From Halovenus sp. (lineage in GTDB: Archaea > Halobacteriota > Halobacteria > Halobacteriales > Haloarculaceae), in assembly GCA_003551265.1 (NCBI GenBank), contig PUMG01000311.1, positions 1 through 13,613 of the forward strand: 13,613 bases of DNA, given 5' to 3'. Within the stretch, counting starts at the first letter, position 1. Every line of letters starts with the position of its first letter. Below the pieces are notes generated by a model. That model was not told the DNA's origin and ran no database searches. It saw nothing but the letters and a program-made list of their open reading frames with translations. The position numbers were made by a program, and so were the translations under genes. This document shows, piece after piece, positions 3,129-13,376 of this stretch.

Positions 3129-3156
3129 TTACGAACGACTCTATGAGTAAACTACC

Positions 3157-3177
3157 CCACCCGTCGTTTCCGCTGTT
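3157..3177 (+). repeat. ORB-like repeat A, downstream of orc
   Basis: Contains CACCCGTCGTTTCCGCTGTT (3158-3177). The reverse complement shows a GGAAAC core followed by a G-rich run, the general shape of haloarchaeal origin recognition boxes. It is identical over 21 bases to the copy at 3195-3215 and differs at one position within the 20-base core from copies C and D upstream of orc. Confidence 0.75.
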
Positions 3178-3194
3178 ATTTCCCTTAAAATGGA

Positions 3195-3215
3195 CCACCC
3201 GTCGTTTCCGCTGTT
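3195..3215 (+). repeat. ORB-like repeat B, downstream of orc
   Basis: An exact 21-base copy of repeat A, same orientation, starting 38 bases further right and ending 13 bases before the orc stop codon. The intervening 17 bases differ in origin and are AT-rich (TATTTCCCTTAAAA). Confidence 0.75.
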
Positions 3216-3228
3216 CGTATGATATTAT

Positions 3229-4488
3229 TTAAAAAGAATTGTCCATTGAATGATGGACATCAGTGTCGCTTTTGAACGCTTCAATTACCGCGTCAACCTT
3301 GACATCCAAATCAAATTGTTTGTATTTACCACCGCCCCGGCCAGCGTTCCGCTGGTCCTCCTTGGCAATTCCAATTAAGTCTAGCTCAGCGAGATGATCG
3401 CGAAGAGCACGTACAGAAAGAGTATCAGTCTGTTCGCGTTGGCACACGATCCGATAATAATCGTACAGTTCTTTCGTACGAATTGGTGTCTCATTGTTTT
3501 TACTAGCGATCGCCAACCCATGGAGCGCATACTTTCCGTGTGGCGAAAGTCCTCCAATCATCTCTGAAACCCGACCACGCTCTACGATACCTTTGGCTTC
3601 TTTCACCAGATCAGGTGTAATCGTATCTAGATCCTTTTTTTGTGCGAGATCACCAGCATTGCGAAGAATATCGATTGCTTGCCGCGCACTCCCTTTATCT
3701 TTTGCTGCATAGGCTGCGGAGCTGTTCAAGACTCCCAGATCATATGCATCATCGTATAGCGCTTTCTCTGCACGACGTTTGAGAATTTCTGTTAGCTCTG
3801 TAGCATTGTATGCTGGAAAGAGAATTTCTTTTTCACAGAGGGAGTCACGAACTTTCGGCGAAAGATCCTCCCGGAACGAGAAGTCATTGCTGATACCCAT
3901 AACACCCAAGTTGGAATTTTTCAAATTATTCGTCGATCTCGCTCGTGCTAGCTGATATAGGATTGTATCATCGTCACCGATATGATCAACCTCATCTAAA
4001 ACAACCAGAACCACTCCATTTCTATTGTCGATCTCTTCAAAAAGCCAATTGTAGATATCGTTTGGTGCGTGTCCTCGAGTCGCGACTTGATGAGCCTCAT
4101 CACGTAGATCGTTGAGAAGTTCAACAGCTACCTGATAACTTGATGTCAGGGCCTCACAATTAAGATAGACAACCTCAAGATTAGTACTGGAGGTGGTATT
4201 CGAATCTTTTTTATCACTGCCTTCAACGGCAGAAGATTGCTCTTGGATATCATGCCGGAGCCAATTTAACATGTAGTGAGTTGTTGCAGTCTTTCCTGTC
4301 CCAGTCTTCCCATAGACAAAGATATTATTTGGCTTCCATCCATTCAGGATTGGTTCAAGCGCTGAAGCGTATTCATCAATCTGTTCATCACGCTCGATCA
4401 GTTGTTCAGGCTGATAATCATCAACGTCCAGAACATCACGGTTCTGGAAGATATTTTGGGTCGTGTCGAACGGCGATTGATTTGGCAT
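3229..4488 (-). CDS. orc1/cdc6: Orc1/Cdc6 family replication initiator
   Basis: A 419-residue AAA+ initiator that binds ORBs, opens the origin and loads MCM helicase. The N-terminus has the family stretch DYQPEQLIERDEQIDEY (24-40). Walker A is GKTGTGKT (60-67), Walker B LVVLDEVD (161-168), sensor 1 around N201 (GISNDFSF), and sensor 2 GSARQAIDILRNAG (266-279, R269). A C-terminal winged-helix domain spans about 305-405, its wing probably being the glycine-rich NAGRGGGKYKQF loop. Length is typical. Residues 84-102 are a low-complexity acidic/Ser insert. Base composition is clearly lower in GC than neighbouring glycan genes (many A/T third positions), as expected of a transferred or plasmid-derived initiator. 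The ATG at 4488 follows a TATA box (4516-4525). ORB-like repeats on both sides and an AT-rich region upstream mark it as the cognate initiator of this origin. Which haloarchaeal Orc subfamily it belongs to cannot be read here. Confidence 0.95.
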   Translation of the reverse strand: MPNQSPFDTTQNIFQNRDVLDVDDYQPEQLIERDEQIDEYASALEPILNGWKPNNIFVYGKTGTGKTATTHYMLNWLRHDIQEQSSAVEGSDKKDSNTTSSTNLEVVYLNCEALTSSYQVAVELLNDLRDEAHQVATRGHAPNDIYNWLFEEIDNRNGVVLVVLDEVDHIGDDDTILYQLARARSTNNLKNSNLGVMGISNDFSFREDLSPKVRDSLCEKEILFPAYNATELTEILKRRAEKALYDDAYDLGVLNSSAAYAAKDKGSARQAIDILRNAGDLAQKKDLDTITPDLVKEAKGIVERGRVSEMIGGLSPHGKYALHGLAIASKNNETPIRTKELYDYYRIVCQREQTDTLSVRALRDHLAELDLIGIAKEDQRNAGRGGGKYKQFDLDVKVDAVIEAFKSDTDVHHSMDNSF

Positions 4489-4515
4489 TTCCTTGCCAAC
4501 AATACGTCCGTTACA

Positions 4516-4541
4516 CTATATAAAACCCCGGTTCCGCTGTT
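4516..4541 (-). promoter_or_regulatory. orc promoter: TATA box abutting a half-ORB
   Basis: The minus strand reads TTTTATATAG (4525-4516), a strong TATA box 28-37 bases before the orc ATG. Directly upstream is AACAGCGGAA (4541-4532), the first ten bases of the ORB repeat, followed by CCGGGG instead of the full motif. A weaker relative, AACAACGGAA, lies at 4559-4550. Initiator binding here would overlap the BRE region, so autoregulation by Orc is plausible. Confidence 0.6.
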
Positions 4542-4581
4542 TCTTCTGCTTCCGTTGTTCAACAGCTTTTATATACTCCCT

Positions 4582-4601
4582 CACCCGTCATTTCCGCTGT
4601 T
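4582..4601 (+). repeat. ORB-like repeat C, left flank of the unwinding region
   Basis: CACCCGTCATTTCCGCTGTT. It is identical over 20 bases to the reverse complement of repeat D and has one change from A and B. It faces the AT-rich stretch that follows. Confidence 0.8.
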
Positions 4602-4926
4602 CTCGACGAAACCGGAATACATTGCATCTGACATTCAAGAACCCCGTAACAACAAAAGTGCTGAAATCAATAGAAGAACGACTGTAATATGGATTTCCCA
4701 AATCTTAAAAACAGATTGAACTCACTAATTTTGTTTGTTCTTGTTACTAATAGACGAGAGTATTAGATATACATATAACTATGGGTAGGGGAAATTTTAG
4801 ACAAGATTGTTCTGTATCATATTCGGCTCCAGTATGTTGTTCTCTTCGATATATACTTCTCTTTTATTTGCATAGGTTTCTTTCTTTAAGTCACATCCTA
4901 CTTGTACTGTTTCCCAGTTTCCTAAT

Positions 4927-4946
4927 AACAGCGGAAATGACGGGTG
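4927..4946 (-). repeat. ORB-like repeat D, right flank of the unwinding region
   Basis: AACAGCGGAAATGACGGGTG on the plus strand, the exact reverse complement of repeat C. C and D thus point toward each other's AT-rich interval, the usual inverted ORB pair. The following bases TGTGTGCCCACACA contain a small inverted repeat (TGTGT/ACACA). Confidence 0.8.
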
Positions 4947-4964
4947 TGTGCCCACACATTAATC

Positions 4965-4981
4965 AATAATAAAACATTATT
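4965..4981. terminator. AT-rich inverted repeat downstream of wecB
   Basis: AATAAT (4965-4970), a 5-base AAAAC spacer and ATTATT (4976-4981). It is 137 bases past the wecB stop in its reading direction and 19 bases outside ORB D. It may be part of the origin or a weak transcription stop; the stem is all A/T, so the terminator reading is uncertain. Confidence 0.25.
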
Positions 4982-5057
4982 CGGCGAGATATTTTAAACA
5001 ATACGTCAACGCATGAAATCCAACGCTCTATAGTGATTCACTGAAGCTATGCACTCG

Positions 5058-5107
5058 CAGCAGTGGTGTGTGTCTGTAAGTCTCATTCACAACAGTGGTG
5101 TGTCTGT
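5058..5107 (+). repeat. Imperfect direct repeat pair at the right edge of the origin island
   Basis: CAGCAGTGGTGTGTGTCTGT (5058-5077) and CAACAGTGGTGTGTCTGT (5090-5107) align with one substitution and a two-base (TG) indel. The match extends leftward as CACTCG/CATTCA with two more transitions. They sit between the AT-rich origin and the wecB stop. They may be a second class of initiator site or mark an old recombination edge. Confidence 0.45.
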
Positions 5108-5117
5108 GGTAATATTC

Positions 5118-6272
5118 TCAGTACTGTTTCTCGGACGAAACCAGCTGTCCACGACGGTGTCGACCCTCAACTTCGCTGGCCGAGGCGTCTTCGAGCGCCA
5201 GCGTGTCCAAGATGCGCTCGCTCGCACGGCCGTCCCCGAAGGGCATTTCCCAGTTCCCTCGTTTGCCGTCCATCTGCTCTCCGGCGAGGACAATCTCAGA
5301 TGGTGAGACACCCGCGATGCAGTTCGCACCGACGTGAACCGTTTCGGGCCGTTCCGTGTTGTACCTCAGTGTCACACACGGTGTCCCGAGGATGCAGGTT
5401 TCTTCTTGCACCCCGCCTGAGTCCGTGAACACCAGCCGAGCCTCGTTTTCGAGACAGAGGAAGTCGAAGAAATCAAGCGGCTCGACGAGACGAATCGTCT
5501 CCGGAACCGTGATACCGAACACCTCAATTTGTTTCCGCGCACGCGGGTGGACAGGGTAGATGATGTCCACGTCGATTCGTCTGGCGTACCGGTCAACACC
5601 ACCGAGCAGCGACTGGAAGCGCTTTCTGTCGTCGACATTCTCGCTCCGGTGAGCAGTCAGGAGACAGAATTCACCAGACTCGAGGTCGAGCCTGTCGAGA
5701 ACGTCGCTCTCGATAACGGCAACCTTGCCGTATCGTTCGATTGCGTCCACGACGGTGTTTCCGGTGACAGTGATCCGTGACTCGGGGATGTTCTCGCGTC
5801 GGAGTTCCGCTGCTGCACTCTCGGTTGGCGTGAACAGGTAATCAGCGAGGTGGTCCACGAGGATACGGTTGGTTTCCTCGGGCATCTCACGGTCGAAGCT
5901 ACGAAGGCCAGCCTCGATGTGTGCCACCTCAGTATCGAGTTTGCTCCCAGCAAGCCCGCCTGCGAGCGTCGAGTTCGTATCGCCCTGGACGAAGACGACC
6001 TCGGGTTCGGTTTCGAGCAATCGCTGTTCGACTTTCCTCAGCATCTCGCCAGTCTGCTCACCGTGTGGTTTCGACCCGACCTGCAGGTTACAACTCGACG
6101 GCGGCAACCCCAGCTGCTCGAAGAACACCTCATCGAGACGCTCGGAGTAGTGCTGGCCAGTGTGAATAATCTCCGCCTGTACACCACGGCGAGCGCACTC
6201 CAGAACAACCGGAGCAGTTTTGATTATCTCGGGGCGGGTTCCAAGGACAAACGAGACGGAGTACTCGACCAT
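5118..6272 (-). CDS. wecB: UDP-N-acetylglucosamine 2-epimerase
   Basis: A 384-residue non-hydrolysing epimerase that interconverts UDP-GlcNAc and UDP-ManNAc, the step before WecC. It has the two-Rossmann GT-B-like layout: GTRPEIIK (11-18) and HTGQHYSERLDEVFF (37-51) at the start, GDTNST (97-102), the active-site block HIEAGLRSFDREMPEETNR (118-136), GNTVVDA (171-177), then LLTAHRSEN and FTDSGGVQEETCILGTPCVTLR in the C-terminal domain, where the UDP is held. Length is normal. I chose the ATG at 6272, seven codons inside the longest frame, because the first beta strand (VSFVLGTRP) starts there and because it lies 26 bases from a promoter-like motif identical in spacing to that of wecC. It is divergent from the GT2 at 6555 and reads toward the origin. 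Its natural partner wecC is on the far side of that origin. Confidence 0.95.
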   Translation of the reverse strand: MVEYSVSFVLGTRPEIIKTAPVVLECARRGVQAEIIHTGQHYSERLDEVFFEQLGLPPSSCNLQVGSKPHGEQTGEMLRKVEQRLLETEPEVVFVQGDTNSTLAGGLAGSKLDTEVAHIEAGLRSFDREMPEETNRILVDHLADYLFTPTESAAAELRRENIPESRITVTGNTVVDAIERYGKVAVIESDVLDRLDLESGEFCLLTAHRSENVDDRKRFQSLLGGVDRYARRIDVDIIYPVHPRARKQIEVFGITVPETIRLVEPLDFFDFLCLENEARLVFTDSGGVQEETCILGTPCVTLRYNTERPETVHVGANCIAGVSPSEIVLAGEQMDGKRGNWEMPFGDGRASERILDTLALEDASASEVEGRHRRGQLVSSEKQY

Positions 6273-6297
6273 ACGTGCTGTGGATGGTCCCACCTAG

Positions 6298-7583: not shown

Positions 7584-9023
7584 TCATCGACCAAAGAGGA
7601 GTCTGCGACTGCCGGCACCCACCTCGAGTGCGGTCGGGACGTGTTCAAGATCAGTTCGGTCACGCTGTTCTAGCGTCGTGATCTCCACGTTGCCGTTCAC
7701 GTCGAGTGCTTCGCCCCCGTTCTCGTAGGGATGGTACGTCTGGATACGGCCACCGAGAGCAGTGTCGGCGAGAAGGCCAGTCGGACCGTGCGCTCTGTTC
7801 GACCAGATCCGCTGAGCATCGATTCCAGCATCGTTCGTGATGCGGATGTTCTCACTGCCGTTTGCACTCGACAGTATCTCTGTTGGAATCACGTAGTCGG
7901 TGTTTCGTGAGAGGCGGAATCCGGTCTCACCGTTATTTCGGGCCACGACATCTTCGAATCGAACCAGGCTCCGGTTGTCGGTCTCCTGGCCTGCCCTGAT
8001 GTAGCCGTGGAAGTCGTTGTTTTCGAGGCGGACGCGACGATAGGTCGCCTCGATGGTTCCGCTCGTCGTTTTCGTCCCCTGCCCGTTGTTTGCACAGACG
8101 GTGTCTTCGACAATGACGTTGCCACCCGAGCAGTTGATACCGTACGTGTTGTTCCCTTTGCCGTTTCGGGCGCAGTACGCTCGCCGTATCACGACGGGCG
8201 GGATATCCTCGTTCCGGATTTCGGACGAGCCGATCGAGATGCCGTGGGTATTGCACCGTTCGACGGTGCAGTTCTCGATGAAAACACCACCTCGCCAGAG
8301 CGAGATACCGGTCTGGTTGCAGTTATCGACCCAGAGCCGCCGCATCGAGAGGTTCAGTGGCTCGGTAGCCTGTCCGCCGTTTTCGACTCGAATTCCATGT
8401 CCGCCGTCTGTGTTCTGCTCGGACCGGTTTCCGTCGATGCGGAACTGACTGAGTTCGAGCGTCTCGAAGTTGCTGTCGCCGTTAATCTCGACAACCTTGT
8501 TGTTCGCTGGCTGGTTGTCGTCCATGCGAATCGTAGACCGGAACCCCTCACCTGTGAGCGTCAGATTCGAAGGCAGTGCCGAGCTGTCGAGAACGATGGC
8601 TGCAGAGTTATCCACCACATCTGCCGAAACGAGCGTCGTTCCCTCCGGAAAATAAACCGTATCGCCGTCATCAGCGGCCAGAAGCGTCTCGTGTATTGCT
8701 TCCGTGTCGTCTGTCCTTCCATCGACGGCCGCACCGTACTCACGGATGTCGAGCGTTTCGTACTCGGGCTCGGCCGGTTCTGCAACCTCCTCATCCGCTG
8801 GAGAAACCTCCGTCTCGTCCTCACGGTGCTCGTCCGTGGTCGCTGCGTCACCCGCATCGGGTGACCTCTCCGTTTCGTCGGGAGTTCTCACGGCGGGACG
8901 CTCGTCGTCGGGGTGGTCCTCGCTCACAGGAGTCTCCTCGACGTCTCTGCGTCGAGCACCACAGCCAGCCAGCAAGGCAGTGGCTGAGCAGACCGCTACC
9001 AGATAGCTCCTGCGTGAGGGCAT
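7584..9023 (-). CDS. Secreted lipoprotein with parallel beta-helix (pectate-lyase-like) domain
   Basis: A 479-residue extracellular protein. The N-terminus is a short signal with a lipobox: RRSYLVAVCSATALLAGC with C21 as lipidated cysteine; the twin Arg at 4-5 suggests Tat export. Residues about 26-88 are an acidic Thr/Glu/Asp/Pro-rich spacer. The domain opens with the pectate-lyase-3 type signature DIREYGAAVDGRTDDTEAI (92-110) and DTVYFPEGTTLV, then repeated right-handed beta-helix coils to about 430. Asn and Cys recur at coil turns (VDNCNQTG, IENCTVERCNTHG, YCARNG, GINCSGG, VCANNG). I count nine N-X-S/T sequons, so it may itself be N-glycosylated. The start at 9023 is set by the signal peptide; the frame continues 152 codons upstream without protein-like sequence. 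It may cleave, epimerise or bind the polysaccharide made here; catalytic residues cannot be assigned. Confidence 0.85.
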   Translation of the reverse strand: MPSRRSYLVAVCSATALLAGCGARRRDVEETPVSEDHPDDERPAVRTPDETERSPDAGDAATTDEHREDETEVSPADEEVAEPAEPEYETLDIREYGAAVDGRTDDTEAIHETLLAADDGDTVYFPEGTTLVSADVVDNSAAIVLDSSALPSNLTLTGEGFRSTIRMDDNQPANNKVVEINGDSNFETLELSQFRIDGNRSEQNTDGGHGIRVENGGQATEPLNLSMRRLWVDNCNQTGISLWRGGVFIENCTVERCNTHGISIGSSEIRNEDIPPVVIRRAYCARNGKGNNTYGINCSGGNVIVEDTVCANNGQGTKTTSGTIEATYRRVRLENNDFHGYIRAGQETDNRSLVRFEDVVARNNGETGFRLSRNTDYVIPTEILSSANGSENIRITNDAGIDAQRIWSNRAHGPTGLLADTALGGRIQTYHPYENGGEALDVNGNVEITTLEQRDRTDLEHVPTALEVGAGSRRLLFGR

Positions 9024-9047
9024 CACTAGATATCGGTCGAGCGAACT

Positions 9048-9056
9048 CTTTGTTAA
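9048..9056 (-). promoter_or_regulatory. Promoter-like motif of the beta-helix gene (TTAACAAAG)
   Basis: Minus strand TTAACAAAG at -33 to -25 from the ATG, within one base of the wecB and wecC spacing. It is embedded in the palindrome CTCTT-TGTT-AAGAG (9046-9059), so a regulator bound to the palindrome would cover the promoter element. Confidence 0.5.
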
Positions 9057-9192
9057 GAGCGTCTTATCGGACAGAGTGTCTCTGGACAGGACTCCCAGAC
9101 TGCATCCCGATTCACTCAACGAGCTGCTTACAATCCCAGATGATTTTTGATATATTCGTGTTTGGTGACCAGTAGCGAACAGTATGTCGTTC

Positions 9193-9201
9193 ATAATTAA
9201 C
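9193..9201 (+). promoter_or_regulatory. TATA-like element of the GT4 operon
   Basis: ATAATTAAC at -32 to -24 from the ATG at 9225, in a 201-base divergent intergenic region. It is a more standard TATA-like sequence than the ATAACAAA motif but begins and ends similarly. A near-leaderless transcript is implied; no ribosome binding site precedes the ATG. Confidence 0.45.
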
Positions 9202-9224
9202 CAGAATTGCAAGCCAGATAGCCC

Positions 9225-10424
9225 ATGTACCGTCTCGCTGCATCGGCAGTCAACCATCCTGACCAGTTGAACCAGCTCTGGGGCGTGTTCAATCACCGGA
9301 GTCTGACAGCACTCTGGCGTAACGGGGTTACCGTGGACGCCGTCGTCCCTCGCCCACACGCTCCACCCGTCGGCCCGTTCTCGGAGTTTCGTTCGATTCC
9401 CTCCGAGGACGAGAGCTTTCCCTATCCAGTCTCTCACCCACGGTTCTGGTACTACCTTCCGAAGTCGCTCTGGTATCACCGCAGCGGTGACTCCATGGCT
9501 GCTGCACTCAAACGGTGGGTCGAGACGCTGGAATACTCACCAGATGTCTTCCATGGGTGTCATCTCTATCCAGACGGCTACGCCCTGAGTGAACTTTCAG
9601 AGAGAGACAGAATTCCCCTGACGACGTACGCCCACGGGACAATCCTCAACGAGTACACCAGTTTCAACAGGGGAACACAGCAGCGTATCGAGACTGCAAT
9701 CCGTTCGTCTTCAGTTGTCTTCTGTTCAGGCGATTCAATCGAGCGAAGCGTGCGCGCTATCGTCCCGACAGCCACGACACGAGTCGTACCGATTGGTGCC
9801 GACCCAGCCAACTTCCCGACAGAACACCAGGCATCGCTTCGACAGGAGTTAGACGTTCCTGCAGAGATGACCGTGGTGCTGTTCTGTGGTCAGTACTCCC
9901 GTCAAAAAGGCGTCGCTGATCTCATCGAGGTGTTGCGGACGCTCCGTGGGGAGTCGCTGTATTTCGTCTTCATCGGTCACGGCGGGGCGTTGCGAGACGA
10001 CGTTCAGGAACTGCTCGACACGAGCGACACACTACACGGGAGAACCCTCTGGAAGGTTCCTCCTGCTGTCGTTCGGCAGTGGTTCGCCGTTGCAGACCTG
10101 TTCATCCTCCCCAGTCACGCCGAAGGTCGCCCGACCGTCATTTACGAGGCGATGGCCAGCCAGACGCCGGTACTCACCACGACAGTGGGCGGGATTCCCG
10201 AGCAGGTCGAGGACGGAGTCACGGGGTGGCTCCTCGAACCCGGTGACATCTCTGGCTTTCGCTCGAAGCTGACAACACTTCCTGTCGAGACACTCCCGGA
10301 GATGGGCCGAGCGGCAGAAACGCGACTCCGGAGAAACGGCTGGACGTGGGATGGACACGCGAGAAGGCTGAGAGACACCCACATGGAAATGATAGGACAG
10401 GAACTAAAAACCCAGAATATATGA
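9225..10424 (+). CDS. Family 4 (GT-B) glycosyltransferase
   Basis: A 399-residue retaining glycosyltransferase of GT4. The N-terminal acceptor domain spans about 1-195 and includes VFHGCHLYPDGYALSEL (108-124) and TYAHGTILNEY (134-144). The C-terminal donor domain opens with VVLFCGQYSRQKGVADLIE (217-235), contains FIGHGG (249-254), and carries the E-X7-E motif as E300 to E308 in SHAEGRPTVIYEAMASQTPV, followed by VGGIPEQVEDGVTGWLLEPGD. There are no membrane segments; it would act at the cytoplasmic membrane face. It is the first gene of a plus-strand operon. Its TGA overlaps the ATG of the next GT4 gene by four bases (ATGA), indicating translational coupling. Donor and acceptor are unknown. Confidence 0.9.
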   Translation: MYRLAASAVNHPDQLNQLWGVFNHRSLTALWRNGVTVDAVVPRPHAPPVGPFSEFRSIPSEDESFPYPVSHPRFWYYLPKSLWYHRSGDSMAAALKRWVETLEYSPDVFHGCHLYPDGYALSELSERDRIPLTTYAHGTILNEYTSFNRGTQQRIETAIRSSSVVFCSGDSIERSVRAIVPTATTRVVPIGADPANFPTEHQASLRQELDVPAEMTVVLFCGQYSRQKGVADLIEVLRTLRGESLYFVFIGHGGALRDDVQELLDTSDTLHGRTLWKVPPAVVRQWFAVADLFILPSHAEGRPTVIYEAMASQTPVLTTTVGGIPEQVEDGVTGWLLEPGDISGFRSKLTTLPVETLPEMGRAAETRLRRNGWTWDGHARRLRDTHMEMIGQELKTQNI

Positions 10425-12371: not shown

Positions 12372-12914
12372 ATGGTCGAGGACGAGCCAAATTCGAAGAG
12401 AGGACTCAAAAGACGCCAGACAACCGGCGAAGACCGTGTGCGAATGGCCGCCCGACAGCTGTCAGAGCCGCGAACAGCGAACTGGATTGCTTCCGAAGTG
12501 GGCTGGTCACACGAACCCACAAAGCGCGTCCTCGAACGGCTCGTTGACGATGGTATTCTCGGCCGTGACGACAGCGGTGCCCACACGACATACTATCCCG
12601 ATTACCGCCGACAGGCGATGCAGGAAGCGATGCGCCTTCGAGACAGCGAACACACAGTTGAAGAACTCACGGATCGCCTCGCCAAGATGAATGCGCAAAT
12701 CCGGGACTGGGAACGTGAGTTCGGTGTCGAATCACCGAATCAGCTTCGTGGGACACTCGCAGACGGCGGCTTTGATGCCGACGAAGAGGACCGTCGCCGT
12801 GAAATCGCGCGCGAGTGGGACCATCTCCAGCGCCGCATCCGAATCGTGGGGTTTGCCATCCGCGAATGGGATTTTCTGACACCCGCGATAGAGCCCTCTG
12901 AGGCAAGGGGCTAA
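12372..12914 (+). CDS. Winged-helix DNA-binding protein with C-terminal coiled coil
   Basis: A 180-residue protein. Residues about 18-75 form a winged HTH: EDRVRMAARQLSEPRTANWIASEVGWSHEPTKRVLERLVDDGILGR, then a wing DDSGAHTTYYPDYRR. Residues about 88-120 are a likely coiled coil (EHTVEELTDRLAKMNAQIRDWERE), and a second helical pair (EEDRRREIAREWDHLQRRIR) follows. This resembles a haloarchaeal group of small wHTH proteins encoded just ahead of a small partner protein. The ATG at 12372 is leaderless relative to the TATA-like element. The next gene begins three bases after its TAA, so the two are one transcript. Likely a DNA-binding autoregulator or antitoxin for the downstream product. The HTH call is strong; the antitoxin role is inference. 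Confidence 0.82.
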   Translation: MVEDEPNSKRGLKRRQTTGEDRVRMAARQLSEPRTANWIASEVGWSHEPTKRVLERLVDDGILGRDDSGAHTTYYPDYRRQAMQEAMRLRDSEHTVEELTDRLAKMNAQIRDWEREFGVESPNQLRGTLADGGFDADEEDRRREIAREWDHLQRRIRIVGFAIREWDFLTPAIEPSEARG

Positions 12915-12917
12915 CGA

Positions 12918-13376
12918 ATGTCGGTTCCGCATCCAGGTGACGACCCGAATCCGAATCTGTACGCACAGCTGAAACGAGATGTGCTCGACCGCATCCCACA
13001 GATCACAGCAGTCGAGTTCGTTCCCGATGATATTGAGGCCAGGCAGTTGCGGGCGACTTTCGGCCCATCTCGCCTCGATCCCCCAACAGGACCCGAATCA
13101 CCTGAGTTGGAACTCAAGTGGTACAGACAGGACCCACACGACTGGTTCCGTATCGATTACAACGACCCGAATACAGACTTTCACGCCGGTTGGCATCAAG
13201 ACGAGGACCATCCCGATCTCGGGCGAACACATTTTCAGTACTCGACCAGAGATGAGGTGGACAGGTGGGGAGTCACACTCGACCACGAGACACCCTCTCT
13301 CATCCTCTGGGAAATCATTGAAACCCTCCTCGAGGATGTCCGTCCGACATACCAGTATTCACACCTCGAAAAGTGA
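12918..13376 (+). CDS. Small protein with TumE/DUF6516-like pattern, candidate toxin
   Basis: A 152-residue acidic protein. The central part reads ELELKWYRQDPHDWFRIDYND (in pieces: ELKWYRQD, DWFRIDYNDPN), then FHAGWHQDEDHPDLGRTHFQYS, followed by a C-terminal helix (SLILWEIIETLLEDVR). A strand ending in FRxDYND, a His-rich loop and a closing helix resemble the TumE-like toxin family (DUF6516), whose partner TumA is an HTH antitoxin. The assignment is by pattern from memory, not by search. It follows the wHTH gene by three bases, antitoxin-first as in such pairs. No signal or membrane segment. If not a toxin, it is an unknown partner of the regulator. Confidence 0.75.
   Translation: MSVPHPGDDPNPNLYAQLKRDVLDRIPQITAVEFVPDDIEARQLRATFGPSRLDPPTGPESPELELKWYRQDPHDWFRIDYNDPNTDFHAGWHQDEDHPDLGRTHFQYSTRDEVDRWGVTLDHETPSLILWEIIETLLEDVRPTYQYSHLEK

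Follow-up and report, generated by a model that had tools for sequence, protein, structure and literature searches.

An orc1/cdc6 gene with inverted boxes in a surface-glycan locus

The window analysed here, 13,613 nt in length, is the whole of contig C288 of a Halovenus sp. MAG that comprises 2.91 Mb in 380 contigs and is 88% complete. Domain and profile matches identify it as a surface-glycan locus encoding a wecC-like dehydrogenase, glycosyltransferases, a wecB-like epimerase and a pectate-lyase-like protein, in the middle of which sits an AT-rich island with a single orc1/cdc6 gene. This gene (3229-4488, minus strand) has a complete and uninterrupted reading frame encoding 419 amino acids, and its product shows the Walker A (GKTGTGKT) and Walker B (LDEVD) motifs of an AAA+ domain as well as lid and winged-helix domains, scoring 402 bits against TIGR02928 (cut-off 181). 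A profile built from its clade aligns over nearly the whole length with the structures 2qby_A (Cdc6 homologs 1 and 3; E = 5e-79) and 2v1u_A (Cdc6 homolog; E = 3.2e-60), proteins of other archaea (Sulfolobus and Aeropyrum) whose DNA words differ.

The orc gene adjoins four 20-nt boxes that are exact matches to one another save for an R at one position. ORB A (3158-3177, plus strand) and ORB B (3196-3215, plus) lie 52 and 14 nt past the orc stop codon, respectively, ORB C (4582-4601, plus) is proximal to the start at about -113 in the orientation of orc, and ORB D (4927-4946, minus) is distal at -457. C and D form an inverted pair, 100% complementary over 20 nt, on either side of an interval of 325 nt (4602-4926) that we presume to be the duplex-unwinding element and whose GC content is 34.2%, as compared with 44.6% in orc and 55.4% in the window. 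The box ends in a G-string, GACGGGTG, with a variable additional G, which is shorter than some published ones. In 100 Markov resamples of the window the mean number of matches at up to three mismatches was 0.0, and in the 2.9 Mb of the 88% complete MAG these four are the only exact boxes, one more site having three mismatches. The initial annotation had described an orc1/cdc6 gene in an AT-rich island, four near-identical boxes with a G-run and an inverted C/D pair around the 325-nt interval, all of which are found as described.

The predicted origin module and two further elements stand between two surface-sugar genes. On one flank lies the wecB-like UDP-N-acetylglucosamine 2-epimerase gene (5118-6293, minus; TIGR00236, 372.7 bits, cut-off 210), and on the opposite one a wecC-like nucleotide-sugar dehydrogenase gene truncated by the contig end (1-933, minus; TIGR03026, 320.5 bits, cut-off 190), which scores below the cut-offs of the narrower UDP-ManNAc dehydrogenase models. 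Besides the origin, the insert includes a glycosyltransferase family 2 gene (989-2008, minus; PF00535) and, at 2261-2919 on the minus strand, a PIN-domain gene (2261-2647; PF01850, 41.5 bits) with a short overlapping gene upstream of it (2644-2919). The latter has no Pfam match and resembles AbrB by eye only, and together the two look like a toxin-antitoxin pair. In all three congeners with the best wecB matches (G099, G097 and G112; 58-60% identity, the G099 frame containing one stop) wecC follows wecB within tens of bases, whereas in the window the two genes keep the same order and direction at a distance of 4.2 kb. A wecB match was obtained in five of the 17 other congeners, the weaker two being G100 and G101; in G100 the order is another one, with a glycosyltransferase gene between wecC and wecB. 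The embedding of the predicted origin in a surface-glycan locus, as originally proposed, is borne out, and the module splits a gene pair that three congeners carry side by side. Regarding direction, it would be the module that entered the glycan locus and parted wecB from wecC. Wu et al. (PMC3528665) have already reported that some species-specific origins of Haloarcula chromosomes lie in polysaccharide regions.

Two observations concern the remainder of the contig. The listed GTG start of the pectate-lyase-like beta-helix protein (7584-9479) overlaps the next gene on the opposite strand, and a segment with two genes, one of them of the DUF7342 type (12414-13357), matches plasmids of Haloarcula halophila and Halovenus salina at a DNA identity of 78-79%.

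The initiator clade and its box in other genomes

In a tree of 87 rows the window Orc falls in a clade of its own that comprises 25 rows as one group (support 100/98) and stands apart from the Orc on contig C171 of the same MAG. This tree includes no reference oriC1 Orc, and we assume C171 to be of the oriC1 type from the look of its 40-nt inverted repeat. The protein database lists 21 further clade members with 63-89% identity. Among 392 order-level genomes, searched with a threshold of E <= 1e-130, the clade was retrieved from four, namely the MAG itself and three genomes of another family (G150, G202 and G209) whose Orcs are about 66% identical to that of the window; in 142 genomes of its own family the next best Orc reached E = 1.3e-115 and 46% identity. 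Two other scans led no further: none of the 23 stretches found by a single-sequence scan of genome contigs was confirmed, and an alignment-based scan that kept 80 of 537 relatives gave a best identity of 44% and missed the clade members recovered by the order-level search.

All four genomes with a clade Orc carry the box, with 0-2 mismatches, at three kinds of position. Their common layout consists of a distal forward box at -188 to -700, a proximal reversed box at -98 to -113 and a reversed box downstream of the gene. In the three relatives the proximal box lies at -98 to -100 with 0, 1 and 2 mismatches, and the downstream one 11, 13 and 25 nt past the orc stop, also reversed; the relatives have two distal boxes and one downstream, whereas the window has one distal and two downstream. 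The ORB word is thus common to this Orc family in four of four genomes, at an identity of the relatives' Orcs to that of the window (about 66%) lower than the 80% that Wu et al. (PMC3528665) set as the limit of a family. This makes a defined initiator/box pair that can be traced across families, and the initiator/ORB pairing put forward by the initial annotation is conserved within its own Orc clade.

The claim that the pairing is also distinct has to be tempered, since Orc-specific ORBs are known and a related ORB is already in print. The Origin II ORB of Hla_3512 / HQ2959A, TAACAGCGGAAACAGTGGGGTGGGGGGGT (PMC3528665), begins with 12 bases, TAACAGCGGAAA, that are those of boxes A and D in that orientation, and differs in its spacer and G-run, the window box having YGACGGGTG. 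An ORB of the TAACAGCGGAAACAGTGGGGTGGGGGGGT type is absent from the one stretch of pHLAC01 scanned for it (L184); the orc4 of pHLAC01 has another ORB. The box word itself does not occur in the main-text ORB sections of PMC3528665 and could figure in the supplementary list of predicted ORBs of that paper, while the matches listed by a literature text search with the letters of the box look like unrelated primer lists.

Exact copies of the box were surveyed as a 20-mer in 146 family genomes and as a 19-mer in 392 order genomes, 445 different genomes combined, in which about 0.03 would be expected at the base composition of the window. Eight genomes have it: the four with a clade Orc, three in which it lies at other orcs or an orc remnant, and one with an orphan copy. 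In these last four (G055, G161, G166 and G154) the box lies beside Orcs of other clades, a remnant or no orc, which counts against the origin reading of the locus proposed below. The single copy in G161 precedes, by about 0.35 kb, an Orc of a different clade that has a 27-nt inverted pair of its own, CCCCCACCCCGGCGTTCCGCTGAATCG, and the single copy in G166 lies about 0.2 kb past a remnant of orc and 1.75 kb from the intact orc. In G055 two inverted window-type boxes flank an unrelated Orc, which shares 31% of 349 aligned positions with that of the window, and after one of these boxes come TATATAAAA and 9-bp units, the arrangement seen in front of a clade orc. We considered whether the box serves there as the ORB of two unrelated Orc clades and rejected this reading, because the G055 Orc has its own thrice-repeated word, nested between the window-type boxes; the specificity of Orc for its ORB can thus stand. 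The simplest reading of G055 would be that a foreign orc-origin sits inside a window-type origin whose own orc was lost. Against the possibility raised initially that the box might be frequent and unlinked to the clade, it is rare and linked to an orc or its remnant in seven of the eight genomes, whereas a clade Orc is present in only four of the eight.

The surroundings of these copies can be described further. In G055 (L014:6427-8563) the Orc's own word, GTGGTCTAAATGAGGGG, is present in three exact copies nested between the two window-type boxes, and genes for a flippase and an aminotransferase lie about 3-4 kb away. In G166 (L143:7620-7914) the remnant is an orc-end fragment that repeats the last part of the orc next to it at 87%, and a single window-type box comes after it. 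At the orphan box of G154 (L144:7411-7429) a TATA-like element and 9-bp units are retained, and the glycan genes around it encode a nucleotidyltransferase, an ABC transporter, an epimerase and glycosyltransferases; no orc was found within about 7 kb. A PF00535 gene lies within 5 kb of the box in the window and in G150, and among the matches listed the other six of the eight loci have none within 25 kb; any enrichment of box-bearing loci near glycan genes is weak, with few loci and a preselected window.

Putative promoter units and a second ORB type

Between box C and orc, each of the four clade members has the same succession of an ORB, ATATAAA, 9-bp units and, some 30 nt ahead of the start codon, a TATA-like element. 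On the minus strand of the window these are, as read from the sequence, the element TATATAAAA (4567-4575) between ORB C and the units, three tandem 9-mers, AACAACGGA AGCAGAAGA AACAGCGGA, the middle one degenerate (4533-4559), and, shortly before the ATG, GGGGTTTTATATAG (4516-4529), the presumed BRE/TATA of orc, to which a promoter role is ascribed by inference. The position of TATATAAAA is occupied by ATATAAA in loci L145-L147 and L014 and by TTATAAA in L144, and a similar GGTTTTATA is found in many orc upstream regions. The units read AACAGCGGA AACAGCGGA AC in G202 and G209 and are degenerate in G150 and in the window, where the best 18-mer scores 6/9.

Upstream regions of other haloarchaeal orcs are often similar, each with its own word. 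We quantified this periodicity in 26 non-redundant orcs (28 cluster representatives minus two short ones, L050 and L143:3551), whose start codons were picked by rule, at least one (L005) being likely wrong. At -90 to -25 the identity at lag 9 was on average 0.363, compared with 0.258 after shuffling (z = 9.5), with a smaller peak at lag 18 (z = 3.1) and other lags between z -3.4 and 3.1, a scatter wider than 1; at -185 to -110 of the same 26 orcs the signal was absent. As a control, 206 upstream regions of other ORFs, which include miscalled ORFs and coding DNA, had a lag-9 mean of 0.279 (0.256-0.279 at their other lags), the value of the orcs was never reached in 2000 draws of 26 of these regions, and a lag-9 identity of at least 0.40 occurred in 8/26 orcs vs 7/206 control regions. 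The arrays also resemble the ORB region of their own locus, with 8.15 of 9 positions vs 7.41 of 9 when mispaired (0/5000 permutations), a difference uncorrected for the base composition shared within a locus.

Period-9 half-ORB units beside the TATA-like element of orc suggest that Orc would bind there and, hence, that the gene is autoregulated; on its half-boxes against this element the protein would repress its own promoter. Mini-ORB and G-string motifs have been described by Norais et al. 2007, as cited in PMC3119063, and some of the 9-bp units may be the 'mini-ORBs' of these authors. Within the literature covered by our searches, no report of such promoter arrays was found. If working as proposed, the units would represent an easily tested control of initiator level in haloarchaea, comparable with that of DnaA boxes in the dnaA promoter.

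At the far end of the intergenic region the window carries two ORBs of another type. This type belongs to an orc on contig C27 of the same genome, whose ORB is a perfect inverted pair of 30 nt; the first of the two window copies (5050-5079, plus) is identical to it at 26/30 positions and the second (5082-5111, plus) at 21/30, with the search word exact at 5090-5108. This word, CARCAGTGGTGTGTSTSTG, occurs without mismatch at four sites of the genome, two at C27 and two at 5050-5111, for a chance expectation of about 1.7e-4 exact sites; the other 12 sites listed differ from it at two or three positions, and their number is about that obtained with the backward control pattern (12). The C27 Orc belongs to a clade different from that of the window Orc (7 rows, 100/100), and in three other members of the C27 clade that were inspected the core 11-mer recurs 6 or 7 times with at most one mismatch. 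Of the 51 loci scanned for both ORB types, many of which span no more than about 4 kb, just one, the window, has the two together. These ORBs lie inside the range covered by the initial annotation (3129-5117), which does not mention them.

With two ORBs of a type that belongs to another Orc of the same genome, the window origin would be either dual, the C27-type initiator acting there too, or the bearer of a relic of C27-type ORBs. We lean slightly to the second option, in which the present module was inserted into or beside a lost C27-type origin and the remaining ORBs provide no working second input. The second copy is identical at merely 21/30 positions, there are just two copies, both in the same direction, and G055, with its GTGGTCTAAATGAGGGG Orc between window-type boxes, resembles one origin type nested in another. 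On the other hand, both copies contain the search word without mismatch, and it has no other exact occurrence outside C27 in the genome, which speaks against a relic. Two ORB types at one orc have a precedent in H. lacusprofundi and H. walsbyi, according to PMC3528665; the window differs from these loci in that its second type can be assigned to a named Orc of the same genome. It is tempting to speculate, though we regard it as a rather doubtful generalization, that many haloarchaeal orcs share an autoregulatory switch of tandem 9-bp half-ORBs, each carrying the ORB word of its locus, at the TATA element and that the window origin is in addition wired to both its own and the C27-type Orc. Should this be true, each Orc would throttle its own synthesis and the dual wiring would couple two origins of one genome.

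A predicted secondary origin and its alternatives

Taken together, the locus is probably a secondary, and probably also horizontally acquired, orc1/cdc6-linked haloarchaeal origin, which would operate as follows. Orc would bind boxes C and D and, once bound, distort and melt the AT-rich interval between them, where MCM would be loaded, while Orc molecules held at boxes A and B past its own stop codon may titrate the initiator. The predicted orc1/cdc6-linked origin of the initial annotation is supported by the Orc domains, the inverted ORBs and the AT-rich interval. The arrangement has counterparts in Haloarcula hispanica, for which PMC3936714 describes origins that depend on a co-located cdc6 and an ORB-rich region downstream of cdc6E (oriC2D) that negatively controls oriC2, likely by titration. 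As in the oriC2-cdc6E locus, the extra ORBs of the window lie directly downstream of the initiator gene; they are two, against 11 in the titrating oriC2D region, which counts against titration here. Similarly, in the origins of Wu et al. 2012 (PMC3528665) orcs adjoin inverted G-run ORBs around an AT-rich region, ORBs may occur on both sides of the gene and the ORB word tracks the Orc family. Given that origins in polysaccharide regions and Orc-specific ORBs have been published, the window locus belongs to an already known class of origins. It is of the ordinary kind of haloarchaeal secondary origin, and its added interest lies in two traits by which it differs from the origins of Wu et al. 2012, a second ORB type assigned to a specific Orc and the placing of the insert between wecB and wecC, as well as in the recurring promoter units.

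Several haloarchaeal origins are dormant (PMC4595724) or nonfunctional (PMC4441112), and the window origin may therefore be silent. A dormant or decaying origin, acquired with foreign DNA and keeping its anatomy without firing, is a less probable but serious alternative to a working one. It accords with reports of nonfunctional (PMC4441112) or dormant (PMC4595724) secondary origins in variable regions and with the decayed-looking stages of the module in G154, with no orc found within about 7 kb, and G166, with its orc remnant. Nonetheless, the unbroken orc of the window, its four boxes exact but for the R at one place and a layout equal to that of the relatives argue for selection until recently. 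That the boxes and 9-bp units are mainly transcriptional, belonging to an Orc-like regulator of its own gene and neighbours with no origin involved, is improbable: boxes and units do abut TATA-like elements, and a non-initiator regulator, Orc1-2, has been described (PMC9738581), but the inverted pair flanks a strongly AT-rich interval, the box ends in a G-run and the 88% complete MAG contains no further exact box.

As for the replicon of provenance, a captured replicon would be consistent with the toxin-antitoxin-like pair and with an insert separating wecB from wecC. The integrated plasmid suggested initially is plausible but unproven: Orc matches occur in 394 plasmid records, every one of them under 60% identity, a close plasmid relative being thus absent among them. 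A recent plasmid copy is unsupported by these values and by the origin DNA (4489-5117), which has no plasmid match, and so is a viral origin, since none of 14 pattern-matching stretches of viral contigs was confirmed. Neither an integrase nor recombination ends were detected among the window proteins scanned, a subset of the ORFs on a contig that ends inside wecC. The GC content of the window (55%) lies within that of four other contigs of the MAG (54-58%).

The predicted origin, as had been suggested, is probably secondary, because the MAG holds other orc-linked repeat sets, one of which resembles oriC1 in look; this single genome seems to carry five Orc/ORB sets. The locus bears on how archaea with multiple origins keep their initiators apart and on how new origins enter chromosomes, and it offers an origin placed between genes that are adjacent in relatives together with a testable cross-connection of two initiators. 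Each of the four further orcs of the MAG (L148, L149, L150 and L151) has a different adjoining repeat word. These words are inverted at C27, C40 and C171 and only direct at C132, where two 33-nt direct repeats, 97% alike, follow directly after the end of orc (L150:3170-3235).
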